Shown piece by piece: positions 43,825 through 58,039 of a stretch of 64,000 bases of DNA. The notes below the pieces were generated by a model. It saw nothing but the letters and a program-made list of their open reading frames with translations. It ran no database searches and had not been told where the DNA came from. The translations under genes and the position numbers were made by a program. Numbering within the stretch: the first letter of the stretch is position 1; each line of letters begins with the position of its first letter. Source of the DNA: Mangrovimonas sp. YM274 (GTDB lineage: Bacteria; Bacteroidota; Bacteroidia; Flavobacteriales; Flavobacteriaceae). The stretch spans positions 3,715,501 through 3,779,500 of the forward strand of contig NZ_CP133091.1 in the NCBI RefSeq assembly GCF_030908385.1. Reading direction: 5' to 3'.

Positions 43825-44364
43825 ATGAGTGTAATTGACATTGTATTAGGAGCCCTACTGCTTTTTGGAATAGTTAGAGGTTTTTTAAAAGGTCTTTTTG
43901 TAGAAGTAGCTTCTTTGATTGCTTTGGTTGCAGGTGTTTTCGGCGCCATGCATTTTAGTAACTATGCCGCCAATTTTCTTGAAAGCAAAGTAGATTGGGA
44001 TGAAAACACCATAACTATTACCGCCTTTGCCATAACCTTTGTGATCATTGTACTGCTGATTGCCCTTGCGGGAAAAGCACTTACCAAATTAGCCGATTTT
44101 GCAGCCTTGGGAATCATTAACAAATTATTAGGTGCCCTTTTTGGAGGTTTGAAAATTGGACTGATTTTAAGTGTCATCCTAATTGTTTATGAACGCATGA
44201 ATAACTCCATGCCTTTCTCTAATGAAAAGCAATTTGAAGATTCCATTCTCTATACCCCTGTAAAATCTTTGGCTCCTATGATATTTCCGGCCTTTTTAAA
44301 TCCGGAACAAATGGAAGGCTTGCTTGACGGAGATTCTAAAACCGAAGACGACAGCAAGAGTTAA
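43825..44364 (+). CDS. cvpA: CvpA family inner-membrane protein
   Basis: A 179-residue protein with four hydrophobic helices in its first 135 residues (SVIDIVLGALLLFGIVRGFL, then VASLIALVAGVFG, TAFAITFVIIVLLIAL and LGALFGGLKIGLILS) and a soluble acidic tail. CvpA proteins are known from colicin V production and bile or envelope stress tolerance. The ATG at 43825 gives the standard MSVIDIVLG start. It ends 4 bases into the tail of the PepSY reductase gene (tail to tail). Confidence 0.9.
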   Translation: MSVIDIVLGALLLFGIVRGFLKGLFVEVASLIALVAGVFGAMHFSNYAANFLESKVDWDENTITITAFAITFVIIVLLIALAGKALTKLADFAALGIINKLLGALFGGLKIGLILSVILIVYERMNNSMPFSNEKQFEDSILYTPVKSLAPMIFPAFLNPEQMEGLLDGDSKTEDDSKS

Positions 44365-46553
44365 TAACAATCCATTTTCAGTTGCCCTTGTGCTTGATAA
44401 AAGCTTAAGGGTTTATGGGTAAACTCGACACAAATAGATTCCAAAACTCCCAACACTCCTTTTTGCATTGCCAAGGAGCCGCAGAGCATAATGACGCCGC
44501 CATTATAAAGGGTTTGTGCTATTTCGCTAGCATTGTCATGCAGTTTGTCCTGCACATAGCATTGTTCAGCTTCACGGGAAAGTACCAACTCAAAATCATT
44601 CAATTTTTTCTGAAGTAACAAGGCATCTATTTGCGGTTGATATAAATTGAAGGACGCCTGAGTTCGCAAACCTAGATAAAGTTTGGTTTCCCTATGCTTT
44701 TTATTTTGATGGAGCATTCCCAAAAAAGGCGCCACTCCGGTACCATTGGCAATAAGAATGACCTTTGGAGCTTTAACTGGAAAATGAAATGACGTATTTT
44801 TGATGATTTTAGCCTTGAATTTATCTCCTACCAACAAATCATTTAGGTAATTGGAGCCCAAACCGTGCTCGTAGAATTTAATGCTCAATTGAATGTTTCC
44901 ATCAACCTTCCCAATCGAATACAACCGCTCCCGATAGTCATTCTTTGGATAGATAGCCAACAAATCCCCAGAGGTAAACTTCTGTGTTTTTTTTGGTTTT
45001 AATTTGAGTAGAAAGGTACTATCTAGATTATCGCTAACCGATGTCTTAGCCACAACCTTGATTTTTTTAGTTTGCTTTCGGTTAGGTACTAAATCTCCCT
45101 CTGGAATTTCCACAGTTAAACCTACATTGGCACTCCATGAACCTACAAACTGATGGAAGGCTTCTAGAGATTTATCGTTAATAGTGGTAACTTCCATGGC
45201 TCTTTCAAAATACACCTCCATAGCTTTATCTATATCATAAGCGAATTGACAAAAATCGGGATAAGCTAAAGAACCAAAACCAACTACTGCATACCTACAT
45301 TTATTAGGTTGTTTGATGATTTTTAATTGTTCCAAAAACTTATCCGCGTTGGTAGGCGCTTCTCCCTGCCCGTAGGTAGCTGTAAAAGCAATAAGATGTT
45401 CAGCTTTTGGAAATTGAGTATAATCGTTCAACTCCGTAATAAATACCTTTTCTCCAGCCTCAATTAACTGTTTATAAAACGCATTGGCATATTGCATGGT
45501 CGAACCATTTTCGGAGCCTACCAAAATGATGTATTGACATTCCTCTCTTCGGAATTTATTCTTTAATCCCGACGCACGACGCTTCAAGGTCATATCAAAA
45601 CCGGAATAAATAAAAAACAAGATATTGATACTAGCCAAACCCAAAATAAAAGCCCAAATTGTATTGCCCCTTCCTGTATGCAACACCATGCTTAGATTGG
45701 TAACCACTTCCACCATGGGTGCTTTCAAGCTACTTAACACTTCTCCCGTATATTGGTTCACTACCAACTCTTCCTGTTTTAGCTTTAAGGTAAAATAATC
45801 CTCTACATCGTCAGAAAAGGGAAATTCCAATGTTTCAACTTCAGAAAGTGGTGTGTTTTGGAACAATTCAAATTCAGAAACATCACGTTTTGGAATCTCT
45901 GAAATTGTATTAAAATCAATCTTGTGCTTTTCCTTGCTTTCTGGCAACAGATTGAATTTTTCCAAAGACAGGTATACCCCAGTAAGGGTAATAATGATGA
46001 TAGGAATTAAGGACAGACGCCCCAAGACCACATGCCAATACTGACTAAAATTCTCATTGACAATCTTAGCAAAAAACTGTTGGATGCCTCTTTGTCGTTT
46101 CACTATTAGAATGGTCCCGGTAATAGCAATCACAAACAGTAAAAAAGAGCACAGTCCCACAAAAAAACGACCGACACTCTTTAAAAATAAAGACCTATGA
46201 AAATTGGTAACCCATTGAAAAAATTTGGAAGGCTGCAGTTTTGCTCCCAAAAACTCAGCCGTAACTGGATTAAAATACCCTTCCAAGTTGTCGCCATTCT
46301 CTGTGAATACAGAGGCTATTACAAAATGATTGGCATCAACCTTGATGTCGATAACTTCCGGGTAGGTTTCCTTAAATACCTCAACAGTTTTGGCCACAGA
46401 CACCTCATCCAAATTGGCAACTTTGTAAGGTGCCAATTGTTCAGAAATAGGCTGAAATGCCAAAATGGCCCCAGTTATGGAAGCCAAAAGGATAAAAACA
46501 ACAGAAGATACAGCCAATGCAAGGTGACTGTATCTCCAAATTGAAATGGTCAT
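44361..46553 (-). CDS. PepSY membrane protein fused to a flavodoxin-NADPH reductase (ferric reductase-type)
   Basis: A 730-residue single-chain electron pump. Residues 1-330 form the PepSY_TM part, with four helices, a periplasmic PepSY loop (about 45-110) and His residues in RYSHLALA, NFHRSLFL, YWHVVLG and VLHTGRG that could bind heme b. Residues 340-480 form a flavodoxin domain (LVGSENGSTMQYANAF). FAD and NADPH domains follow, with RERLYSIGK (RxYS), NGTGVAPFLG and a C-terminal aromatic ending KMDCY, as in sulfite reductase flavoproteins. It should carry NADPH electrons across the inner membrane to a periplasmic acceptor. It is the last gene of the heme-locus operon, 11 bases after the DUF2271 gene. 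Confidence 0.93.
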   Translation of the reverse strand: MTISIWRYSHLALAVSSVVFILLASITGAILAFQPISEQLAPYKVANLDEVSVAKTVEVFKETYPEVIDIKVDANHFVIASVFTENGDNLEGYFNPVTAEFLGAKLQPSKFFQWVTNFHRSLFLKSVGRFFVGLCSFLLFVIAITGTILIVKRQRGIQQFFAKIVNENFSQYWHVVLGRLSLIPIIIITLTGVYLSLEKFNLLPESKEKHKIDFNTISEIPKRDVSEFELFQNTPLSEVETLEFPFSDDVEDYFTLKLKQEELVVNQYTGEVLSSLKAPMVEVVTNLSMVLHTGRGNTIWAFILGLASINILFFIYSGFDMTLKRRASGLKNKFRREECQYIILVGSENGSTMQYANAFYKQLIEAGEKVFITELNDYTQFPKAEHLIAFTATYGQGEAPTNADKFLEQLKIIKQPNKCRYAVVGFGSLAYPDFCQFAYDIDKAMEVYFERAMEVTTINDKSLEAFHQFVGSWSANVGLTVEIPEGDLVPNRKQTKKIKVVAKTSVSDNLDSTFLLKLKPKKTQKFTSGDLLAIYPKNDYRERLYSIGKVDGNIQLSIKFYEHGLGSNYLNDLLVGDKFKAKIIKNTSFHFPVKAPKVILIANGTGVAPFLGMLHQNKKHRETKLYLGLRTQASFNLYQPQIDALLLQKKLNDFELVLSREAEQCYVQDKLHDNASEIAQTLYNGGVIMLCGSLAMQKGVLGVLESICVEFTHKPLSFYQAQGQLKMDCY

Positions 46554-46564
46554 ATTACGATTGT

Positions 46565-47050
46565 TTAATTGGGCATCATGCGGACATACCGAATAAACCC
46601 AGTGCCTTCCACTTTACTTTTTATGCTTTCTGATGTCAATGGAAATTCAACATCCTGGGTATAATACCCTTGGTCTTCCACAGCTGTTTCAAAACGAATG
46701 CTGTAGCCTGCATCAATTTTGGAATCTTCGATTTCGATAACATTAATACTGCGCTCTCCCCCTGAGATTGTAGCCCCAGTAATAGCATCGATATTGTTTC
46801 GTTTTTTACCGTAAAATTGCCACCAAGATTCCAAGGTATTGTACCACTCATTATCATCTCCCTGCACAAACAGTGTTTGCTCATAGTCACCATCAGGATT
46901 GATCAATGAAATGACTACATAAGCCCCTTCCCCTGTATAATTGGTCAATTGGATCATGCATTTATATTTGGTTGATGGTCCTTGATTGGTAAATGACGCC
47001 AATCCAAAAACCATAGTCAATCCAAGTATTATTAAACGTATATTTTTCAT
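46565..47050 (-). CDS. DUF2271 periplasmic protein with predicted FMN-attachment motif
   Basis: A 161-residue exported protein with a signal peptide (residues 1-22). The mature part is beta-rich, like DUF2271 proteins. At residues 88-94 it reads DAITGAT, matching the D-x-x-[ST]-G-A-T motif in which ApbE attaches FMN to the last Thr in NqrC, RnfG and related carriers; the candidate residue is Thr94. DUF2271 genes often sit beside PepSY and ApbE genes, from memory. Here it lies between the ankyrin and PepSY reductase genes. No apbE is in the window. Confidence 0.88.
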   Translation of the reverse strand: MKNIRLIILGLTMVFGLASFTNQGPSTKYKCMIQLTNYTGEGAYVVISLINPDGDYEQTLFVQGDDNEWYNTLESWWQFYGKKRNNIDAITGATISGGERSINVIEIEDSKIDAGYSIRFETAVEDQGYYTQDVEFPLTSESIKSKVEGTGFIRYVRMMPN

Positions 47051-47062
47051 TCTGTAAATGTC

Positions 47063-48544
47063 TTATTTTAAAAATTCTATTGAAATGTTATTGCTTTTCA
47101 ACAATTCATTTTCCTGGGCCAAGTCGTAGGCCGTCTCCTCAAATTCGGTCATAAGGGTTTTGTTCGCACCTTGTGCCACCAAGTATTTCATAATGCCATC
47201 ATCGGAAGCTTTCATGGCTGCCAAATGCAAAGCAGTGTTCCCGTCTCCATTTTTAGCATTCACATCAATTTTCATTTCCGAAGCCATTTTCAACAACTCC
47301 AAACTTCCTTTTTCAACAGCCATATGATACCATGTATTGCCATTTTTTTGGGTTTGTCCCAACAGTAATCCATGTTTCTCTAGGCTGCTTAATTTTTCGG
47401 AAAACTCCTTAGGGTTTCTAGTTGAATAAGAATTTACCAAAGCATAAACCAAACTATTTCCCTCAGTATCTACAACATCTATTTTCGCTCCTCTCTTCAT
47501 CAAGAATTCAACCACTTCAACAGAATTTCCTTCCACAGCATAAAACAAAGCTGTTTGTCCTTTTTTGTTGGCATGATTGATATCCTTAAGGGTTTTGGAC
47601 ATTAGTTTTACCATGTCTAAATTATTTCTGTAAGCGGCATTCATAAAAGGTGTATTTCCATCATGATCTTCTTCATTCACGTCCAAACCTTTCTCCAAGA
47701 GATAGCGTATCAATTCTTCATCCTTACTTCTTGAAGCCAAAATATGTAAAGGTGTCTGCCCTTCTCTATTGATGACATTAGGATTGAGGCCTTGTTCCTC
47801 CAAAAATTTATAGACTTCAATACCGTTAGTCTTTCCTCTGGTTCCATAGGCTGCAAACATAAAAGCTTGGTTATTCCCATTTACACCTCTTCCTTCTAGA
47901 ACTTTCAAGGCTTCCAAATTACCAGTCCTTGCCACGTAGTTAAAAATCCCATTGCCGTCTGAATCCACGCTATTGATATCCAATCCCTTTTTCTGAAAGT
48001 ATTCTACCAATTGAAAATCCTCATCATTTGGTGCTACCAACAGCAAAGCATTTGCTCCATTAGGCGTGAGATCTTTTTTTAAATTCGCACCATTGGCCAA
48101 ACAAAGGTCGTACACATCAGTGTTCTTCTGACCTGAAGAGGCTGCAAAATTTAAGATGGTATTGCCTTTATCATCTGTAATATCGGTTTTGGCACCGTGC
48201 TGCAACAAATACTCCATGACTTGGGTATTGCCCTTATACGCTGCCCAGAAAATGTAGGTACGTCCGTCGTGGGTTAGTTTGTTAACATCATTGCCTTCTT
48301 GGGATATCAAATAGGTAATGCTGTTAAATGGAGCATCTTGTAAAATGGCATATACCACGCCATCAAAATTATTACCATTAGCTTGAGCAGGGTCATTCCC
48401 TTCTGCAATTTTCGCTTTAATCGCCGCTACATTTGGTTGCGATTTCCAAAAGTCTCGGTTTAAAAAAACGTTATCCTGTGCAAACGATTGTATCCCCAGT
48501 AGCAACATAGCACCGAGGATACAGGATTTAAAACAACTATTCAT
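47063..48544 (-). CDS. Secreted ankyrin-repeat protein
   Basis: A 493-residue protein with a signal peptide (ending SFAQ) followed by about a dozen ankyrin repeats. Examples are DKGNTILNFAASSGQ, REGQTPLHILASRSKDEELI, DHDGNTPFMNAAYRNNLDMV and NGDGNTALHLAAMK. Ankyrin repeats bind proteins. A periplasmic adaptor or scaffold role in the heme and electron-transfer locus is inferred from position. It lies 4 bases after the DUF6607 gene and 12 bases before the DUF2271 gene. Confidence 0.9.
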   Translation of the reverse strand: MNSCFKSCILGAMLLLGIQSFAQDNVFLNRDFWKSQPNVAAIKAKIAEGNDPAQANGNNFDGVVYAILQDAPFNSITYLISQEGNDVNKLTHDGRTYIFWAAYKGNTQVMEYLLQHGAKTDITDDKGNTILNFAASSGQKNTDVYDLCLANGANLKKDLTPNGANALLLVAPNDEDFQLVEYFQKKGLDINSVDSDGNGIFNYVARTGNLEALKVLEGRGVNGNNQAFMFAAYGTRGKTNGIEVYKFLEEQGLNPNVINREGQTPLHILASRSKDEELIRYLLEKGLDVNEEDHDGNTPFMNAAYRNNLDMVKLMSKTLKDINHANKKGQTALFYAVEGNSVEVVEFLMKRGAKIDVVDTEGNSLVYALVNSYSTRNPKEFSEKLSSLEKHGLLLGQTQKNGNTWYHMAVEKGSLELLKMASEMKIDVNAKNGDGNTALHLAAMKASDDGIMKYLVAQGANKTLMTEFEETAYDLAQENELLKSNNISIEFLK

Positions 48545-48548
48545 AAGC

Positions 48549-49454
48549 TTATTTTACAAACGATTCAATTAACGGATTGATTTCCTCCGCTGTTTGGTAT
48601 TTTTCAGCATCAAACAAATATTTGAACAACACCTTGTTATCCACTTTTTCCTGCAAATATAAATCTTTATGTCTTGCAAACACGTCATCCCACTTAGCTC
48701 TTACCAAAGCCCATTTTGCCTGATTGGTATTCCAGTAATCTTGAGCCGCTTTACACATGCTATCGACTACTTTTACATAGGTATTGTATCCTTTTTCCTG
48801 AGCCAAGACCTTATCTTCCTTTCCTTCCTCACGCACTAACTTATCATTGTCTTGATTGTGAATCCAACCGCTAGCTGTAATCTCGTGACGATTTCTTCTT
48901 ACCGTCACATTATAATCACTACGTTGGGTATACTCGCGTCTTGGTAGTGGCGCAGTTGTAGTATTTTCCCAATAGCTTTTGCCATCTACATGTACCCAAG
49001 TCGCAGTCCCTTCATATCTTGGGCTGTCGTCCACTTGAAATACTTTTTGCGTCCACTGTCCTTTTACTTCACTTTTCGGCAAACTTTGGTAGCTCCATTT
49101 ATTATCATGGTCGTACACATACAAATCGGTGTTTTCAAATTCCCAATCCTGTCTCCAATGCTTCACAATATGAGGCGCCTCCGATGGTCCTACAATCAAT
49201 AAATGCTGCATGGAAATTTTATCCTTGCTATCCTCTACCAACTGTACCCACTCCAAACCTCTATCGTGTTTTGTTTTGGAAGGCACATATGTTGAATCTC
49301 CCGAATACTCAAAGGTTTCAGCAAAATTGAAATTTACCTTATAACAGCCACACATATCTTTAATGGCTTGTTGATCTTGTTTCTTTTTGTTTTGGGCATG
49401 TAGGTTCACACTTAAAAATAATGCCGCTGCAACTAATGGAAAAATACGTTTCAT
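48549..49454 (-). CDS. DUF6607 family exported protein
   Basis: A 301-residue protein with a signal peptide (1-20, ending LHAQ). The mature chain starts with a CGC-containing segment (KDMCGCYKVNFNFAETFEY) and is rich in Trp, Tyr and His, for example APHIVKHWRQDWEFENTDLY and GTATWVHVDGKSYWENT. The beta-rich centre and helical C terminus are consistent with a DUF6607 domain. The function is unknown. It is the first gene of the operon, facing the TonB receptor across a short regulatory gap. His and Trp content makes heme binding conceivable but unproven. Confidence 0.85.
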   Translation of the reverse strand: MKRIFPLVAAALFLSVNLHAQNKKKQDQQAIKDMCGCYKVNFNFAETFEYSGDSTYVPSKTKHDRGLEWVQLVEDSKDKISMQHLLIVGPSEAPHIVKHWRQDWEFENTDLYVYDHDNKWSYQSLPKSEVKGQWTQKVFQVDDSPRYEGTATWVHVDGKSYWENTTTAPLPRREYTQRSDYNVTVRRNRHEITASGWIHNQDNDKLVREEGKEDKVLAQEKGYNTYVKVVDSMCKAAQDYWNTNQAKWALVRAKWDDVFARHKDLYLQEKVDNKVLFKYLFDAEKYQTAEEINPLIESFVK

Positions 49455-49469
49455 TGAAAAAAATTATTC

Positions 49470-49519
49470 TTATTTAGATTGATTTAAAATAACATTGATA
49501 TATTTGCAACGCAAAACTA
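49470..49519. promoter_or_regulatory. Divergent promoters and inverted repeat controlling the heme locus
   Basis: For the plus strand, TTG (49479-49481), 17 bases, TATATTTG (49499-49506) is a full promoter for the receptor gene. For the minus strand, TAGTTTTG (49519-49512) is a perfect -7 element for the DUF6607 operon. Between them lies a 23-base imperfect inverted repeat with arms TTATTTAGA and TTAAAATAA (49470-49492). It covers the plus -33 element. An iron-dependent repressor such as Fur is a plausible binder, but the site does not match a consensus that I can vouch for. Confidence 0.6.
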
Positions 49520-49526
49520 ATCAAGA

Positions 49527-51602
49527 ATGAGTCTAAATAAAAATAAAATTATCGTTTATTTTTTACTTTTTTTAAGCCGCTTCGCCTTTTCGCAGGAAGT
49601 AACACAGGACTCTACCCAAATTGAAGAACTCCAAGAGGTCATGGTTACGGCCACTCGAACCGAAAGACAGCTATCGTCTTTACCGCTGCCTGCCCAGTTG
49701 ATTTCGAAAAAAGAAATTCAACAAATCAACTCCATGAGATTAAGCGATTTAATCAATGAACAAACTGGTTTAATTACTATACCCGACTTTGGAGGTGGGG
49801 AAGGCATACAAATGCAGGGCTTAGATTCGCAGTATACTTTAATCATGATTGATGGCGTCCCTTTAATTGGACGCTCGGCAGGAACTTTGGATATCAGTAG
49901 AATTTCCGTTGGAAATATTAAACAAATAGAAATTATTAAAGGGGCCTCCTCCAGTCTTTATGGAAGTGAAGCTCTTGGAGGCGTAATCAATATTATTACC
50001 GAAGACCCTAATGCCGGAATCCAAGGACAAGTAAGTTCCAGATATGGTTCTTTCCAGACTTATGACACATCGCTTTCCTTAGGCTACAAAAAAGAGGCCT
50101 TTGCCATAAGTGGATTTTACAACCGTTTTAGCAGTGAAGGTTACGATTTAAACAAAACTGATGCTCTAAATACGGTAGAGCCATTTGCTAACCATACTGT
50201 AAACACTCAAATTACCTACAATTTCTCAGAGCAAACAAACCTGTCTTTATCAGGAAGATATTATACCCAAAATCAAGATTATGTAGCTTCTGAAAACCTA
50301 AAGGGAAAAAGTGATATAAATGAATGGAATACCCATTTAAAACTCAACCACACATACAACCCAAAATGGAACAGCTATTTTGAATTGTATGCCACGCAAT
50401 ACAAAGCAGAGGAATACCTTAATAATATAGACTATTCTAGATATAGCGATGCCTATTTTGACCAACTCATGATGAGGCCAGAAATGCGTGCACTTTTTGA
50501 ACCCAATGACAAGCATAATGCGATAGTTGGAATTGGCTGGACACATGAACGCTTAAATAGAACTGACTTTAGCACCAATCCCGAATTTAACTCCCCTTAC
50601 ATTTATGCACAATATGATGCTAACCCAACGGACAAACTTAACCTTATAATTGGAGCCAGATTTGACCACCACAGTGAATACAATTCACAATTCAGTCCAA
50701 AGGCAGCTTTACGTTATAAATTAAACACAAAGATTGCAGTTAAAGCATCTGTTGGTTATGGCTTTAAAGCTCCAGATTTTAGGCAACTCTATTTTGATTT
50801 CTCCAATTCCGCCGTCGGATATACGGTCTTAGGATATAACGCGGTTACCACAGCAATTCCTCAAATGGAAGCCAATGGTGAAATAGCCAACATTGTAGTA
50901 CCAATTTCAGAATTCGAAGCCCATTTAAAGGCCGAAAATTCCATAGCCTATAATCTAGGGGTCGATTACAAGCCTTTTTCATCTTTAAAACTTAACCTAA
51001 ACTTGTTCCGAAACACTATTAATGATTTAATAGATACCCGAGTTGTTGCAAATAAAACAAATGGTCAAAATGTATTTAGCTATTACAATGTAAACAACGT
51101 CTTTACTCAAGGCTTAGAACTCAATACAAGTTGGAAACCCAATAACAATCTAACTATATCGGGAGGGTATCAATTACTATATGCAAAGGATAAAGCGGCT
51201 CAAGACAACTTTGAAAACGGAACTGTTTATGCTAGGCTTACTCCAAGCTCCCCATCGTTTCAACTCAACAAAAAAGACTATTTCGGCCTTTATAATCGTT
51301 CAAGGCATATGGCTAATTTCAAGGTCTTCTACGTGTTCCCAAAATGGAAATTGGATGCGAACCTTAGAGGTACCTACCGAAGTAAATATGGTCTGTATGA
51401 TACCAATGGCAACACCTATCTAGATGCCTATGATGAGTTTGTTGACGGATATTCAATTTGGGACATTGCCTTTAACAAAACGGTTTTTAAACATTACAAA
51501 ATAGGTTTTGGCATTGACAATCTGTTTGGCTTTACCGATACGCAACATATCAGCAACATATCAGGTCGCAATATTTACGGAAAACTTAATATTCAAATTT
51601 AA
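49527..51602 (+). CDS. TonB-dependent outer-membrane receptor, probably for heme
   Basis: A 691-residue outer-membrane transporter. Signal peptide (to about FSQE), then TonB box-like region and plug domain (about 38-165, VMVTATRTERQLSS, LYGSEALGGVINIIT), then a 22-strand barrel ending in a terminal aromatic-alternating strand. FKAPDFRQLYFD (about 413) resembles the FRAP motif of heme receptors, while the NPNL element is not clear. With the HmuY-like lipoprotein downstream, this is the HmuR-type pair. It has its own promoter; hmuY follows 25 bases after. Confidence 0.9.
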   Translation: MSLNKNKIIVYFLLFLSRFAFSQEVTQDSTQIEELQEVMVTATRTERQLSSLPLPAQLISKKEIQQINSMRLSDLINEQTGLITIPDFGGGEGIQMQGLDSQYTLIMIDGVPLIGRSAGTLDISRISVGNIKQIEIIKGASSSLYGSEALGGVINIITEDPNAGIQGQVSSRYGSFQTYDTSLSLGYKKEAFAISGFYNRFSSEGYDLNKTDALNTVEPFANHTVNTQITYNFSEQTNLSLSGRYYTQNQDYVASENLKGKSDINEWNTHLKLNHTYNPKWNSYFELYATQYKAEEYLNNIDYSRYSDAYFDQLMMRPEMRALFEPNDKHNAIVGIGWTHERLNRTDFSTNPEFNSPYIYAQYDANPTDKLNLIIGARFDHHSEYNSQFSPKAALRYKLNTKIAVKASVGYGFKAPDFRQLYFDFSNSAVGYTVLGYNAVTTAIPQMEANGEIANIVVPISEFEAHLKAENSIAYNLGVDYKPFSSLKLNLNLFRNTINDLIDTRVVANKTNGQNVFSYYNVNNVFTQGLELNTSWKPNNNLTISGGYQLLYAKDKAAQDNFENGTVYARLTPSSPSFQLNKKDYFGLYNRSRHMANFKVFYVFPKWKLDANLRGTYRSKYGLYDTNGNTYLDAYDEFVDGYSIWDIAFNKTVFKHYKIGFGIDNLFGFTDTQHISNISGRNIYGKLNIQI

Positions 51603-51627
51603 ATAAACATCAAAAACACTTACTTTT

Positions 51628-52254
51628 ATGAAAACAATTAAACATTTAACACTAGCACTACTTTTTATAGGTTTTACTTCTTGTAGCAATGATGATGATA
51701 ACTCGAGTGCTTTAATGGAGATTGAAGCAGAAACAATCACGAATCTTCAAGCCACCCAATCGGCAGACTATTCCACCACACCGCCAACAATAACCGGAGA
51801 TTACATAAAATTTTCCTTTGACGCTGGCGCCATTACTACCGGAGACGAATGGGATATCGCGTTTAGAGGCTCTACAATTATTATAAATGGAGGAGAAGCC
51901 ACAGCAGAAGACCAACCAGAAAGAACAGGTGAAGGCGGAGCCTATATTGCTTCAGGGACATTTGCTAGCGTAACAACTGTGGACCCTTCATTATTCAATG
52001 CAGACAGCACTACCAACGGACTAGCAATTCCAACAGGTTCTGACAACGGATGGTATAATTACAACCCAACAAACCACCTAATCACTCCTCTTGCGGGTAA
52101 AATTATTGTTGTGAAAACACATGATGGGCGCTTTGCCAAAATAGAAATTTTAAGCTATTATGAAAACAGTACTCCTAATGAGGATTTAACCAATTCGCAA
52201 TTCTACACATTCAATTATGTGTACCAACCAAACCAAGGAGAGAGCACATTTTAA
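51628..52254 (+). CDS. hmuY: HmuY-family heme-binding lipoprotein
   Basis: A 208-residue lipoprotein; the lipobox is FTSC (Cys19), followed by SNDDD, an acidic run of the kind linked to surface export in Bacteroidota. The mature chain shows the HmuY pattern: YIKFSFDAGAITTGDEWDIAFRG, then TIIINGG and GEGGAYIA, and a C-terminal KIVVVKTHDG-type strand region (here IIVVKTHDGRFAKIEIL). HmuY of Porphyromonas gingivalis captures heme from host proteins and hands it to HmuR. Heme-ligating residues vary and are not identified here. A terminator follows. Confidence 0.88.
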   Translation: MKTIKHLTLALLFIGFTSCSNDDDNSSALMEIEAETITNLQATQSADYSTTPPTITGDYIKFSFDAGAITTGDEWDIAFRGSTIIINGGEATAEDQPERTGEGGAYIASGTFASVTTVDPSLFNADSTTNGLAIPTGSDNGWYNYNPTNHLITPLAGKIIVVKTHDGRFAKIEILSYYENSTPNEDLTNSQFYTFNYVYQPNQGESTF

Positions 52255-52289: not shown

Positions 52290-52323
52290 AAAAGGCCACT
52301 CAATTTGAGTGGCTTTTTTTTGT
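52290..52323. terminator. Bidirectional terminator between hmuY and the carbonic anhydrase gene
   Basis: The stem GCCACTCAA/TTGAGTGGC with a short loop has A-rich left and T-rich right flanks and lies directly beside the stop of the minus-strand carbonic anhydrase. Good for hmuY; for the minus strand the T run also exists. Confidence 0.8.
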
Positions 52324-52950
52324 TTAGTCCAAATGATAAATCTGTCGAATTTTTTCCAATATGGATTCAAAGTCTATTTTCAAGTCAATGAGTTTGCCAG
52401 AATGCACATCAAACACCCAACCATGGACTTTTAAGCCGCGTTCCCGAACGGCTTTTTGGATGGCAGCTGTTTTGATTAGATTGACACATTGCTCCTGAAC
52501 GTTCAATTCTATTAAACGATCATATCTTTTATTTTGGTTGTCAATGGCATTAAGCTCTTCGGCGTGCAAACGATACACATCCCTAATGCTTCGCAACCAA
52601 GGGTTCAACAATCCCAAATCTTCCGAGAGCATAGCTGCCTTAACACCTCCGCAGGCGTAATGTCCACATACCACCACATCGGCAACCTTCAAATGGTTCA
52701 CGGCATAGTCCACTACGGACATTGCATTTAAATCGGTAGCGATAACCATGTTTGCAATGTTACGATGAACAAAAGCCTCCCCGGGCTCCAAACCCATAAG
52801 ACCTTCCACATCTACACGACTATCGGAACAACCGATATATAAAAATTGAGGGCTTTGACCCTTCCCCAACTTATTAAAGTAGTTTTCATCCTTGGTCAAT
52901 TTCTCCTGAATCCACTTTTCGTTGTTCTCAAAAACTCTATTTAAATCCAT
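52324..52950 (-). CDS. Beta-class carbonic anhydrase (partner of the second SulP)
   Basis: Interconverts CO2 and bicarbonate in the cytosol. Zinc ligands are in CSDSRV (about 41) and GHYACGG (His about 98, Cys about 101). Length 208 is usual for the beta class. It lies 12 bases after the SulP gene and is cotranscribed with it. The set of bicarbonate transporter plus anhydrase suggests assimilation of inorganic carbon for anaplerotic reactions. Confidence 0.93.
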   Translation of the reverse strand: MDLNRVFENNEKWIQEKLTKDENYFNKLGKGQSPQFLYIGCSDSRVDVEGLMGLEPGEAFVHRNIANMVIATDLNAMSVVDYAVNHLKVADVVVCGHYACGGVKAAMLSEDLGLLNPWLRSIRDVYRLHAEELNAIDNQNKRYDRLIELNVQEQCVNLIKTAAIQKAVRERGLKVHGWVFDVHSGKLIDLKIDFESILEKIRQIYHLD

Positions 52951-52962
52951 TTTGTAATCTAA

Positions 52963-54819
52963 CTATATCACATTATTTTTTATCCAATTTGTAGACGCTT
53001 TAAAAGTATCAAAAATACGATCTTCTGATATCAATTCCGGAATAATTCCGATGCGTTCCATCATGTACCTAGGTTGCCTTAACAGGCCAACAAACAGAAC
53101 TGTCACTCCATTTTTAGCCAACTCTTGCAGGACATCCTCAAAAGCATATAATCCTGACTGATCCATATACTGCATGCGCCCCAACCGAACCACCACCGTT
53201 TTGGCCGTAGAAGGTATCTGGGCCGCCAAACTTTGAAATTCGCTGGTAGAACCAAAAAACAACGGGCCTTTTACATGTTTAATAAACACTTCTTCTTTTA
53301 ACTTTTCAGAAAAATTGGAGGCATTGTCCCAGGCCTTTTCTTTAGCCAAAGGTTTTACGTCTGATCTTTCGGCTGTCAAATCTCCAATTTTTTTCATAAA
53401 CATGAGCGATGCAATAACAAGTCCTATTCCCACAGCATATACCAAATTCCAAATGGTGGAAAGCACCAATACCACGATCATGATCATAACCTCCGAGCTT
53501 AGTTTGACAGGTCCAATGCCGATATCTTTTGGAAGGCTTGGAATGGCCTTCAACCCTTTGTAATCCATCACACCTATCCCCACAGTAATTAATATGCCTG
53601 CCAAAACAGCTGCAGGAATTTTGGATGCCACTGGCCCCAATAATAACAGAATGATCAGCAATACTAAACCTGCAATCATTCCCGAAAGTCGGGTCGTCCC
53701 CCCCGATTGAATATTCACAACTGTCCTAATGGTTGCACCTGCACCAGGAATACCACCAAAAATAGCCCCAATACTGTTTCCGATACCCTGGCCAACCAAT
53801 TCCTTATTTGGCTGGTGTTTGGTTTTGGTCATATTGTCTGCCACAATACTCGTGAGCAAAGAATCTATAGCCCCTAAAAGGGCCAACGTAAGTGCCGTGA
53901 AAATATAAGGGCTTACTTGTTGCAACCTAAAATCGGTAAACATATTTAAATTGGGCAATGGAAACCCACTTGGGATTTGTTGGATTGGTTTATAGTTTAA
54001 ATTGAAAACTATGGCAATGGTAGACATCACCAATAAAGCCACCAAAGTACTAGGCACAGCTTTGGTAATCTTCTTAAACCCATAAATAATGATAATAGTC
54101 CCTAGTGCCAATACCAATTCCAACCAATTAATATTCATAAGTGCTCTAGGAAATACTTTAATTGCCCCAACAACACCTGAAGCGTTATTAGCTGCCATCG
54201 TTTCTGATTTTTCGAGAATTTCCTCTTCAGAAATATGTTCCGCCCGATCGATCGTTTCCCTAAAGTCTTCCAATACCAAAATACCTTCCCCTGCTTCCTC
54301 CTTCAAAATATTTTCAAGAATGGCCTCCTCGGCCATTGGTTTAAACTTTGCCACATACTCCTCGTCCTCCTTTGGATAATATCCCAAGGATGGCAAAATT
54401 TGTGTCACAATAATAATCACACCTATCGCCGACATAAATCCAGATACCACGGGGTAAGGAATATACCTTATGTACCTTCCCAAACCTAAAACTCCCAACC
54501 CTATCTGCATAAGCCCAGAAAGCAAAAACACGATTAAAATGGTAGGGAGTGCCTTTTGAACATCACCGTCATTGGCCGCAATAATACCGGCAATAACTAC
54601 CATACTTACGGCTGTCATGGGAGCCGTAGGACCGGAAATTTGAGTATTGGTACCTCCTAAGAGGGCTGCAAAAAAACTTAAAAAAATGGCGCCATAAAGC
54701 CCTGCGCTGGGTCCCAACCCAGAACTTACTCCAAAAGCAAGAGCTAACGGCAATGCCACAATCCCTGCTGTAACACCTCCAAAAAGATCACCCTTAACAT
54801 TGGAGAATAATTTGTGCAA
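52963..54819 (-). CDS. SulP family anion transporter with STAS domain (probable bicarbonate transporter)
   Basis: An integral membrane transporter of about 618 residues (TTG start at 54819) or 651 residues (ATG at 54918). The transporter core starts KGDLFGGVTAGIVALPLALAFG with the family motif PTAPMTAVSMVVIAG; a charged loop is inserted near 205-235 of the longer form. The STAS domain follows about residue 520 (FGSTSEFQSLAAQIPSTAK). The terminator of the upstream gene ends at 54919, next to the ATG, which makes the ATG a poor start; the TTG matches the family start. It is paired with a carbonic anhydrase, so bicarbonate is the likeliest substrate. Confidence 0.85.
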   Translation of the reverse strand: MHKLFSNVKGDLFGGVTAGIVALPLALAFGVSSGLGPSAGLYGAIFLSFFAALLGGTNTQISGPTAPMTAVSMVVIAGIIAANDGDVQKALPTILIVFLLSGLMQIGLGVLGLGRYIRYIPYPVVSGFMSAIGVIIIVTQILPSLGYYPKEDEEYVAKFKPMAEEAILENILKEEAGEGILVLEDFRETIDRAEHISEEEILEKSETMAANNASGVVGAIKVFPRALMNINWLELVLALGTIIIIYGFKKITKAVPSTLVALLVMSTIAIVFNLNYKPIQQIPSGFPLPNLNMFTDFRLQQVSPYIFTALTLALLGAIDSLLTSIVADNMTKTKHQPNKELVGQGIGNSIGAIFGGIPGAGATIRTVVNIQSGGTTRLSGMIAGLVLLIILLLLGPVASKIPAAVLAGILITVGIGVMDYKGLKAIPSLPKDIGIGPVKLSSEVMIMIVVLVLSTIWNLVYAVGIGLVIASLMFMKKIGDLTAERSDVKPLAKEKAWDNASNFSEKLKEEVFIKHVKGPLFFGSTSEFQSLAAQIPSTAKTVVVRLGRMQYMDQSGLYAFEDVLQELAKNGVTVLFVGLLRQPRYMMERIGIIPELISEDRIFDTFKASTNWIKNNVI

Positions 54820-54918
54820 TTTTATCTTTTTTAACGGTCTCCCTAATTTAACCTTTATCTTGTAAAGAAAAAAGTGAACACGAGACTCTTTCTCATTACA
54901 AACCAGTCCATTGCACAT

Positions 54919-54958
54919 AAAAAAGAAGCATTAACAATATTGTTAATGCTTCTTTTTT
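54919..54958 (-). terminator. Perfect 40-base palindrome acting as terminator
   Basis: A perfect palindrome centred at 54938/54939 (half site AAAAAAGAAGCATTAACAAT) is followed on the minus strand by its own T run. It lies 25 bases after the stop of the second carbonic anhydrase and would end the SulP-Usp-anhydrase unit. It also could function on the plus strand. Confidence 0.85.
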
Positions 54959-54983
54959 GAATACTATTATTTAGGAATAGCTT

Positions 54984-55613
54984 CTATTCATAAAAAGTTA
55001 CGGCGCCAGTATTAACATCATACATAGCTCCTATAATTTTAATATCCCCACTCCTTTCCATGTCATCTAAAATAGGACTTTCTTTACGAATTCGATCAAT
55101 AGTTAAATGCACGTTCTTTTCTGATACAGCATCCACAAACTCCAAATTCTTTGAGTTTCTTAAGCTTTCATCAGCGGGTTCGGTAACACTGTTTACGGCT
55201 GGCGTAATTTTTTCGATCAACTTGGTTAGATTGCCCATTTCGGCATGATCGCAAGCTCCCTTTACAGCTCCGCAACTCGTGTGCCCCAAGACTACAATTA
55301 GTTTGGTTCCTGCCAATTTACAGGCAAATTCCATGCTTCCAAGGATATCCTCGTTAACAAAATTTCCTGCAATTCGTACACTAAAGATATCTCCCAATCC
55401 CTGGTCAAAAACCAACTCCGCAGAAACTCGAGAATCGATACAGCTTAAAATAGTCGCAAAAGGAAACTGTCCTTCACTAGTATCATTTACCTGCTCCAAT
55501 AAATTTCTGTTGGCTTTTAGATTATTTTGAAACCTTAAATTTCCTTCCTTTAAAAATGTCAATGACTTTTCTGGCGTCATTGTTGCCTGTGTCTCCTTGG
55601 TATGTGCTTTCAT
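54984..55613 (-). CDS. Beta-class carbonic anhydrase (partner of the first SulP)
   Basis: A 209-residue enzyme. The zinc ligands are the Cys of SCIDSRVSAEL (about 58) and the His and Cys of VLGHTSCGAVKGAC (about 110-123). It is the last gene of the group with Usp and the first SulP (35-base gap). The two anhydrases of the window are clearly different paralogues. Confidence 0.93.
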   Translation of the reverse strand: MKAHTKETQATMTPEKSLTFLKEGNLRFQNNLKANRNLLEQVNDTSEGQFPFATILSCIDSRVSAELVFDQGLGDIFSVRIAGNFVNEDILGSMEFACKLAGTKLIVVLGHTSCGAVKGACDHAEMGNLTKLIEKITPAVNSVTEPADESLRNSKNLEFVDAVSEKNVHLTIDRIRKESPILDDMERSGDIKIIGAMYDVNTGAVTFYE

Positions 55614-55648
55614 AATTTTATTTGTTTGATAACTCTCTTTAAATGCCC

Positions 55649-56440
55649 TTATTGAGCCGATACTAAAAGAGAGATATTAATAGTGTTTGCTATATTTAGT
55701 ATATCTGTATGTTTGGTCTTTATATGATTTTCGGTTTTAGAGTGTCCTCTTTCTACACAAAACAAATTTACGCTGCTTTTGGATAGATAATTGGACAGGT
55801 TTTTAATACTTTCATCGCCCTCTTCAAAAACATATTCTATTGTGTCTACTTCCTGTTGTTGTTCAATTGAATTATCTTTTACATAGGCTATTTTAAAAGA
55901 CTTCAAAGGTTGGTTACTAAGTACCTTTAAACTTCTGGCCAGGCCAAAATTGGCACCGTTAAAAACACCCAATGAAAAGGGTTGATTGGGTTCTAGAGCA
56001 TGCTCGGTACCCACAATCATCATCACACCCTGGTGTGTATCCATCACAAATTGGGTTAAACCATCGCTTCCCAAATTAAACAGTTTGGGTTGCTTTTTTC
56101 CCATAACAATAATATCGGGGCGTCGGTTTTTGATATAAGTATCTATTTCATTTTTAACATTTCCAAACGAAAAGCTATAATCAATAGGAACCCCATAAGT
56201 AGCTACAGTAGTCTTGATCCTTTCTTGAATGAGCTTATTGGTGCTATTTTTTTCTTCATTAATGCTCCTAATAGCAGACAACTGATTTTCCTTTTGAACA
56301 ATGTCTCCCGGCTTTTTCACATAAAACAAGTCAATCGTACCATTGACCATCTTCGCCAAGCTCACTGCACTTCGCAAGGTGATATCGGTTGTGCTTCCCA
56401 AATCTGAAAGTACCAATATGCGTAAGGCTTTTGGTTCCAT
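55649..56440 (-). CDS. Universal stress protein (tandem Usp domains)
   Basis: A 263-residue cytosolic protein with two Usp-like alpha/beta halves. The first (about 7-140) has ILVLSDLGSTTDITLRSAVS and ends near VMGKKQPKLFNLG. The second (about 150-260) ends INISLLVSA. ATP-binding glycine motifs are only partly present. It sits between a SulP transporter and carbonic anhydrase with 6- and 35-base gaps, so it belongs to the same unit. A regulatory role is inferred. Confidence 0.85.
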   Translation of the reverse strand: MEPKALRILVLSDLGSTTDITLRSAVSLAKMVNGTIDLFYVKKPGDIVQKENQLSAIRSINEEKNSTNKLIQERIKTTVATYGVPIDYSFSFGNVKNEIDTYIKNRRPDIIVMGKKQPKLFNLGSDGLTQFVMDTHQGVMMIVGTEHALEPNQPFSLGVFNGANFGLARSLKVLSNQPLKSFKIAYVKDNSIEQQQEVDTIEYVFEEGDESIKNLSNYLSKSSVNLFCVERGHSKTENHIKTKHTDILNIANTINISLLVSAQ

Positions 56441-56446
56441 GTTGTT

Positions 56447-58039
56447 TTAGCTCAAACTTAGTTTAGATTTTGGACGCTCCTTGAAAAACTTCACAAAGCT
56501 AGGAGGGTTTTCTACGATTCCACGTTTAGAAACTAATTTCACATCAATATTTCGTTCTTTCGCCTTATGGGTAAAATCTTCTAAAATCTCAATAATATCA
56601 TGATCCAAATATCGGGTCTTCATAAGGTTAAGTTCTAAATACGTATCACGAGGCAGACTGTCCAATTCCTTAAGGATAGCACCTTTGTTAAAAAAGGTCA
56701 CTTCCTCAGCAAGGGTCATTTTTATCTGGTGTTTCCCATTGCTTTTATCTTCTATGTGCAAGAAGTGAGAATTTTGGTAGCTTTTTAGAAGGATTACAAT
56801 GATTCCTGCCAAAAGGCCTAAGCTAATTCCAACTAGCAAATCGGTGAATACAATCCCCACTACAGTTACTAAAAATGGTAACCACTGTTTCCACCCCAAC
56901 TTGTACATTTCAATAAACAATTTTGGTTTTGCCAACTTATACCCTACAACTAAGAGAATGGCGGCCAAAACAGATAGCGGAATCATGTTCAGTAATTTTG
57001 GAATTAAAATCACCGAAACCAATAAAAACAAACCGTGAATGATTGCTGATAACTTCGTACGTCCTCCCGATTGAATATTAGCGGAACTCCTTACAATTAC
57101 CTGAGTAATTGGCAAGCCCCCAATTAAACCTGAAAAGATGTTTCCAGTTCCTTGAGCCAACAACTCTCTATTGGTTGGCGTTACATTTTTATGCGGATCA
57201 ATTTTATCCGTAGCTTCCACACACAATAAGGTTTCCAAACTTGCAACCAAAGCTATGGTAAAAGCAGTTACCCAAATTTCATGATTGGTAATTGCTCCAA
57301 AATTTGGAAAAGTAAACTGCCCTAAAAATGAATTGAAATCATCTGGAATTGGTACGCTCACCAGATGGGTTGTTGATATGTTTAAAGCATCATTTGATTT
57401 GGTGATAACATAAAACACAATACCCAATACCACAGCTACCAAAGGCCCTTGAATGATCTTAAAGAATTTTGCCTTTTTGGCCAGAATATTATCCCAGATA
57501 AGAATCACTGCCAGCCCTATGATACCAATAACCATAGATCCAAGGATAAGATTATCAAAAATGTGAAATATGGAAGAAAATGTATTCTCTCCTGAAAGTT
57601 CAAGGAAACTATCAGCTCCCTCCGGTTCGGCATCGTAACCAAAGAAGTGTGGAATTTGCTTTAAAATGATGATGATTCCAATCCCTGTCAACATTCCTTT
57701 AATAACCGATGACGGAAAATAATATCCAATCACACCGGCTCTTAAAACACCCAACACCAATTGAATCACTCCACCTAACACCACGGCGACAAGGAAATTT
57801 TCATATCCTCCCAAGGTACCAATTGCCGTCAATACAATAGCTGCTAAACCTGCTGCAGGGCCACTAACTCCAATATTGGACCCACTTAAGGAACCTACTA
57901 CAATACCACCAACAATTCCTGCAATGACCCCTGAAAACAATGGAGCTCCACTTGCCAAGGCAATACCCAAACACAGGGGCAATGCCACAAAAAACACGAC
58001 TATACTAGCCGGTAAATCTTGTTTAATATATTTAAACAT
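56447..58039 (-). CDS. SulP family anion transporter (probable bicarbonate transporter)
   Basis: A 530-residue inner-membrane transporter with about 12 helices and a short STAS-like C terminus (about 435-520, VTFFNKGAILKELDSLPRDTY). The N terminus MFKYIKQDLPASIVVFFVAL is typical. The transport core includes GVSGPAAGLAAIVLTAIGTL. With the following Usp and carbonic anhydrase genes it looks like a bicarbonate uptake module, similar to BicA/SulP modules in marine flavobacteria. Sulfate transport cannot be excluded. Confidence 0.9.
   Translation of the reverse strand: MFKYIKQDLPASIVVFFVALPLCLGIALASGAPLFSGVIAGIVGGIVVGSLSGSNIGVSGPAAGLAAIVLTAIGTLGGYENFLVAVVLGGVIQLVLGVLRAGVIGYYFPSSVIKGMLTGIGIIIILKQIPHFFGYDAEPEGADSFLELSGENTFSSIFHIFDNLILGSMVIGIIGLAVILIWDNILAKKAKFFKIIQGPLVAVVLGIVFYVITKSNDALNISTTHLVSVPIPDDFNSFLGQFTFPNFGAITNHEIWVTAFTIALVASLETLLCVEATDKIDPHKNVTPTNRELLAQGTGNIFSGLIGGLPITQVIVRSSANIQSGGRTKLSAIIHGLFLLVSVILIPKLLNMIPLSVLAAILLVVGYKLAKPKLFIEMYKLGWKQWLPFLVTVVGIVFTDLLVGISLGLLAGIIVILLKSYQNSHFLHIEDKSNGKHQIKMTLAEEVTFFNKGAILKELDSLPRDTYLELNLMKTRYLDHDIIEILEDFTHKAKERNIDVKLVSKRGIVENPPSFVKFFKERPKSKLSLS

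Follow-up and report, generated by a model that had tools for sequence, protein, structure and literature searches.

The six-gene haem locus of Mangrovimonas sp. YM274 appears to place two modules under one Fur switch: a haem-capture unit and a general periplasmic iron reductase, a reading to which we assign a probability of roughly 60%. The locus lies in a 64,000-nucleotide stretch (the window; Table 1) of a 3.82-Mb genome consisting of a single contig. One Fur-controlled divergent promoter would drive both modules. The first would be haem capture of the RhuH/RhuR/RhuA type, with a surface HmuY-fold lipoprotein, a TonB receptor and the DUF6607 haemophore, while the second would be a separable electron-transfer cassette, co-transcribed behind the haemophore and used here alongside haem uptake. 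Within this explanation, the gene content and order, the operator, the motifs and the predicted fold of DUF6607 are the parts supported by sequence.

Table 1. Features of the haem locus, in window coordinates (strand "." denotes a feature assigned to neither strand).
Feature	Position	Strand	Basis
PepSY_TM, flavodoxin and FAD/NAD(P) (FNR-like) reductase fusion	44361-46553	-	Pfam, His conservation
DUF2271, predicted ApbE-flavinylated periplasmic electron carrier	46565-47050	-	PF10029, 143 bits
Ankyrin-repeat protein, secreted; first cassette gene	47063-48544	-	Ank_2, 208 bits
DUF6607, RhuH-family haemophore with Sec signal peptide	48549-49454	-	PF20311, 331 bits
Fur-like operator TTATTTAGATTGATTTAAAATAA, common divergent promoter	49470-49492	.	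Promoter comparison, genome pattern search
TATATTTG, candidate Bacteroidota -7 element (TAnnTTTG), receptor transcript	49499-49506	+	Sequence reading
TonB-dependent receptor, RhuR/HfpR counterpart	49527-51602	+	Pfam; adjoins DUF6607 in 80/81 loci
HmuY-fold surface lipoprotein, RhuA/HfpY counterpart	51628-52254	+	PF14064, relatives, fold
Bidirectional terminator hairpin ending the receptor-lipoprotein unit	52290-52318	.	Both orientations in L090

Re-reading the sequence returned all six open reading frames on exactly the strands and at the coordinates given in the preliminary description, with the same minus-strand gaps of 4, 12 and 11 bp (DUF6607, ankyrin, DUF2271 and reductase genes in transcription order), and Pfam backs every gene name assigned at the locus. 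The signal peptides claimed for DUF6607, the ankyrin protein and DUF2271 were likewise recognized on inspection as Sec-type N-termini. The gap between the DUF6607 and ankyrin genes has a median of 3-4 bp across 98 other loci; the linkage is thus tight where it is present, and because so short a gap recurs, the arrangement is not due to chance. Among named relatives, a Mangrovimonas stands closest, with a DUF6607 that is 96% identical. On the 3' side of the haem locus (window positions 52324-58039) come two genes each for carbonic anhydrase and SulP-type transporters, which several relatives retain as neighbours.

By sequence and modelled fold, the window DUF6607 is a member of the RhuH haemophore family. 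A sequence search of the PDB yielded a single match, 8XJC, entitled 'haemophore' (E 2.2e-90, residues 5-298), and an AlphaFold model (pLDDT 87), built with 63 relatives alongside the window protein, aligned to the same structure in Foldseek with TM values of 0.83/0.90. The haem ligand of RhuH, His96, corresponds to H99 of the window protein and is kept in 161/161 relatives. On the strength of the 8XJC match and the fold, the label of a protein of unknown function was dropped. An initial hunch, a likeness to the phycobilin lyase CpcT, found no support. The next plausible solved fold after RhuH was nitrobindin (E 2e-3, TMt 0.54), which is also a haem beta-barrel; we take this as a weak hint of common origin and claim no kinship. 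In Riemerella, RhuH binds haem with a Kd of 3.4e-11 M, for which His96 is required, takes haem from haemoglobin, and is needed for iron-limited growth on haemoglobin or haemin; across the family, high-affinity haem binding and haemoglobin extraction have been demonstrated in four other species (PMC11967795). The Riemerella protein B739_0174 was rejected as a DUF6607 member, being a hypothetical protein beside another receptor; the DUF6607 protein of that organism is B739_1415 (RhuH).

Together with the TonB receptor and the HmuY-fold lipoprotein, the RhuH assignment sustains the earlier description of the locus as one for heme capture. In our family and class samples, DUF6607 adjoins a TonB receptor gene in 80/81 loci and an HmuY-family gene in 79/81, the latter checked by running Pfam on samples of loci. 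The window lipoprotein, which begins with a lipobox and an acidic SNDDD stretch, matches the HmuY profile only weakly by sequence (36 bits, cut-off 27). Nevertheless, PF14064 is matched by 28/28 of its close relatives, and Foldseek placed its predicted structure with HmuY and BfrB of the PDB (3h8t, 8b6a) at a probability of 1.00, in agreement with the original HmuY-like call. HmuY binds haem through two His and its relatives through two Met, whereas neither residue is invariant in the alignment of the window protein's 28 close relatives, and its haem ligands may be of other kinds. Neighbouring proteins of 360-470 aa in relatives without a match to the window HmuY-like protein were considered as unrelated, a view that was rejected since the sampled ones belong to the HmuY family by Pfam, some of them with two domains or T9SS tails.

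Comparison with two loci of the same genus (L090 and L084) showed that their DNA identity of 87-89% to the window ends at position 49626, just past the receptor signal peptide, and returns at 52290, just beyond the lipoprotein. In between, the receptor and HmuY pair has been exchanged for another receptor and an HmuY-family protein of greater length; neither the promoter nor the four-gene operon was lost in the swap.

The divergent promoter common to both units spans 72 bp, from 49455 to 49526, and holds a Fur-like operator, TTATTTTnAATCAnTCTAAATAA, with the 9-mer TCTAAATAA as its core. This core occurs on either strand in 122/127 divergent DUF6607/receptor promoter regions, and in 98/127 the exact TCTAAATAA closes a conserved TTATTTT...TCTAAATAA arrangement; GCAAATATA, which forms part of the evidence for the -7 element, was found in 95/127. 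Genome-wide, one pattern search with both strands counted gave 13 matches against 3 for the control. Besides the haem locus, the operator pattern precedes feoAB, a TonB receptor-DUF4374 pair and an imelysin gene, which is the pattern expected of Fur, for which this genome has one gene. The shared promoter looks Fur-controlled, with Fur binding predicted from the operator. In Riemerella, both rhuH (PMC11967795) and the receptor gene B739_0173 (PMC7976709) have been shown to be under Fur control.

The same pattern with 2 mismatches is located 5' of nqrA (G000:C1:3356538, L219:14538), and the nqr operon is followed by one of the two ApbE genes of the genome, suggesting that iron may control the sodium pump. 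A second iron-type cluster of this genome (L215:5817-13748) comprises DUF4856, imelysin, an HTTM/gamma-carboxylase-like protein, a TonB receptor, a thioredoxin-like protein and ApbE, and has the operator immediately upstream of imelysin.

Judged by their motifs, the three genes behind DUF6607 belong to the known PepSY/DUF2271 flavinylation system, in a variant with an ankyrin gene. The reductase contains exactly four conserved histidines, H10, H119, H174 and H292 (117/117 relatives), which lie by inspection in or near predicted membrane helices and fit the two-haem, four-His PepSY structure of PMC11334425; haem binding is predicted. In its flavodoxin and FNR-like domains, the protein is similar to NADPH diflavin reductases. 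DUF2271 carries the flavinylation motif DAITGAT (D88 to T94), which fits [S/T]GA[S/T] and in which G92 and T94 are conserved in 99% and 98% of 124 sequences, and a DUF2271 protein has been experimentally shown to be flavinylated as an ApbE substrate (PMC8238504). The two ApbE genes of this genome are both away from the cluster, one behind the nqr operon and the other within the imelysin/TonB-receptor cluster; an ApbE gene occupies C1:1478854-1479693. At two loci without linked DUF6607 (L237, L243), the cassette is directly followed by ApbE, and the ankyrin gene is immediately 5' of DUF2271 in 19/20 such loci. One relative has the ankyrin-DUF2271 pair without the reductase, beside ferrochelatase and a Flavodoxin_5 protein (L226:4759-8387).

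The anatomy of the transmembrane electron path put forward in the preliminary description is present, in the four histidines of the reductase and the ApbE motif of DUF2271. Electrons from NAD(P)H would enter the cytosolic flavodoxin and FNR domains of the reductase, cross the membrane via two haems on the four histidines, and reach the covalent FMN of periplasmic DUF2271, whose flavin would reduce periplasmic iron for FeoB, a protein encoded in this genome, with the ankyrin protein probably acting in the docking of partners. We infer this course of the electrons, the choice of iron as substrate and the part played by the ankyrin protein.

Two lines of evidence bear on how closely the modules belong together. 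In a family sample of 301 genomes, used for both counts, DUF6607 was present in 102, DUF2271 in 83 and both in 63, an odds ratio of 14 (Fisher p 8e-21, phylogeny ignored) that exceeds what a reductase of purely general use would give. On the other hand, 32/86 DUF2271 loci have no haem genes nearby and about half of the 102 DUF6607 genomes have no linked DUF2271, so that the cassette cannot be called 'dedicated' to haem, as it first had been. In the 20 unlinked loci that we read, 18 retain all three cassette genes or their ankyrin-DUF2271-reductase order. A tree of 54 reductases requires at least 5-6 switches between loci with and without a linked DUF6607 gene. Furthermore, at the chromosomal spot of the window (SulP/carbonic anhydrase to CvpA), the haem genes are missing beside the cassette in L231, and the cassette is missing beside the haem genes in L047, L055, L069 and L078. 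The linkage has therefore been repeatedly made or lost. Of the neighbourhood conservation that the preliminary description proposed to survey, the DUF6607-receptor-HmuY grouping does extend beyond the family, and the linkage of the cassette has been gained or lost at least 5 times.

Unlinked cassettes often follow another TonB receptor and a lipoprotein of ~430-460 aa (four were compared with Pfam, none matching), and in L100 a CarboxypepD_reg-type receptor is inserted between the DUF6607 and ankyrin genes, with a similar order in L103 and L176. Such loci would suit a cassette that acts on ferric siderophores or free Fe(III) taken up by other receptors and has nothing but its Fur promoter in common with the haem genes. 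This reading expects the cassette with about equal frequency beside other Fur-regulated receptors, whereas 54/86 DUF2271 loci have DUF6607 no more than 8 kb away, and we regard it as unlikely.

The opposite possibility is that the DUF2271 flavin reduces imported haem iron itself, possibly on periplasmic DUF6607, which would loosen the haem or release its iron. DUF6607 is Sec-exported, with a lipobox in 1/161 relatives and no T9SS tail by Pfam, and its plain Sec signal would allow an encounter with DUF2271 in the periplasm. Loss of rhuH also harms growth on free haemin (PMC11967795), so RhuH may act after capture, and it is found in outer-membrane vesicles, the lumen of which is periplasm-derived. 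Moreover, the coupling of DUF6607 to the ankyrin gene is kept through different gene arrangements, an FMN_bind protein takes the place of the cassette behind DUF6607 at some loci, and the whole genome, in a search that covered CobN/HmuS (PF02514) and PF01126 haem oxygenase, has a match to neither. The separate occurrence of both modules speaks against this function, and the in vitro extraction of haem from haemoglobin by RhuH suits a role outside the cell. Direct haem reduction by the cassette is possible, but we doubt that it is what the cassette is dedicated to. Still more speculative is a specific form of the idea, in which DUF6607/RhuH would be at least partly periplasmic, the reduced DUF2271 flavin would reduce its ferric haem and release haem or iron, the ankyrin protein would dock both, and FMN_bind would replace DUF2271 elsewhere. 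If true, bacteria that have neither HmuS nor PF01126 haem oxygenase would thereby process haem reductively.

Loci without the cassette were informative about such replacements. A DoxX-like membrane gene (L051:11705-12154 and 24 similar loci) stands by the HmuY gene in 25/81 loci and the cassette is present in 37/81, with an overlap of 0 (Fisher p 3e-9, phylogeny ignored). An FMN_bind protein is encoded behind DUF6607 in 11/81 loci, none with the cassette (p 7e-4, phylogeny ignored); in L060:8858-9409, for example, it carries a flavinylation motif and follows DUF6607 directly. In a second set of 80 identity-ranked loci, an FMN_bind match and the cassette were both present in two, not adjacent to each other. 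Strict replacement of the cassette was not upheld: because only 6/15 profile matches keep the motif, as searched by regular expression, the replacement is a hint and not proof.

Periplasmic ankyrin proteins are known beside catalase genes, which would agree with a function in redox protection or in repair within the periplasm, either MsrQ-like or AnkB-like, that limits oxidative damage by haem or iron during import. PepSY-like and MsrQ-like proteins also have a common membrane core (PMC11334425). However, genes for MsrP, catalase and peroxidase are absent from the six-gene set, and PepSY/DUF2271 clusters elsewhere go with iron uptake, making a protective role very improbable.

The haemophore and electron-transfer cassette, co-transcribed in dozens of genera, provide a concrete gene set with which to test how Flavobacteriaceae release iron from imported haem. 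The locus also prompts one to ask if RhuH is confined to a role outside the cell. Because relatives with the haem genes, with the cassette or with both occur at a single syntenic spot, as if by natural 'deletion', the matter is directly testable.

Each half of the locus is known separately; their union, frequent and rearranged time and again, seems to be undescribed. In the open-access literature, we found no description of the DUF6607-cassette union with its constant secreted ankyrin partner, no paper on the pairing of DUF2271 with ankyrin, no experiment in which the cassette was given haem or iron, and no paper using the name 'DUF6607'. The earlier statement that no described system with the full gene set was known hence appears to hold for the union; for the parts it does not, as RhuH/RhuR-RhuA with a Fur box and PepSY/DUF2271 have been published. 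The preliminary description had also missed that DUF6607 is a crystallised haemophore, that a divergent Fur-box locus was published and that an orthologous-looking cassette of Riemerella is induced when iron is limiting.

The haem genes of the window are, by sequence, a published RhuH/RhuR/RhuA-type locus. In Riemerella anatipestifer (B739_1415-1417), the haemophore likewise diverges from a TonB receptor and a haem-binding lipoprotein, with a Fur box in the promoter between them, the same haem-ligand His and the same fold; unlike in the window, electron-transfer genes behind rhuH are not described (PMC11967795). What is apparently the same cassette, annotated as ankyrin, predicted periplasmic and 'nitric oxide synthase' proteins, is found there at a separate locus, B739_0173-0177, which has the order of unlinked cassettes (matched by annotation and gene order, not sequence) and whose genes are all induced by iron limitation (PMC5429918).

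The PepSY-like flavinylation system (Meheust et al. 2021, PMC8238504) joins PepSY_TM to DUF2271 with [S/T]GA[S/T], as here, with NAD-binding domains in a subset, TonB-type genes near some clusters and a proposed role in iron reduction; the window differs in lacking DUF4198, in its constant secreted ankyrin protein, in having ApbE elsewhere and in being joined to a haemophore. FoxB-like PepSY haem reductases form two haem sites from four membrane His, to which the four His of the window reductase would correspond. The Hmu system of Porphyromonas/Bacteroides has the TonB receptor and HmuY-fold lipoprotein in common with the window and differs by its CobN/HmuS. Finally, the Hfp system of Flavobacterium psychrophilum consists of an iron-regulated TonB receptor and an HmuY-like haem-binding protein, as here, within a 19-kb region that includes iron-responsive putative transmembrane electron-transfer genes; it differs in having DoxX between receptor and lipoprotein, and no haemophore-cassette operon is described (PMC9331221). 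Haem binding has been shown by others in these relatives for RhuH, RhuA and HfpY (PMC11967795, PMC9331221).
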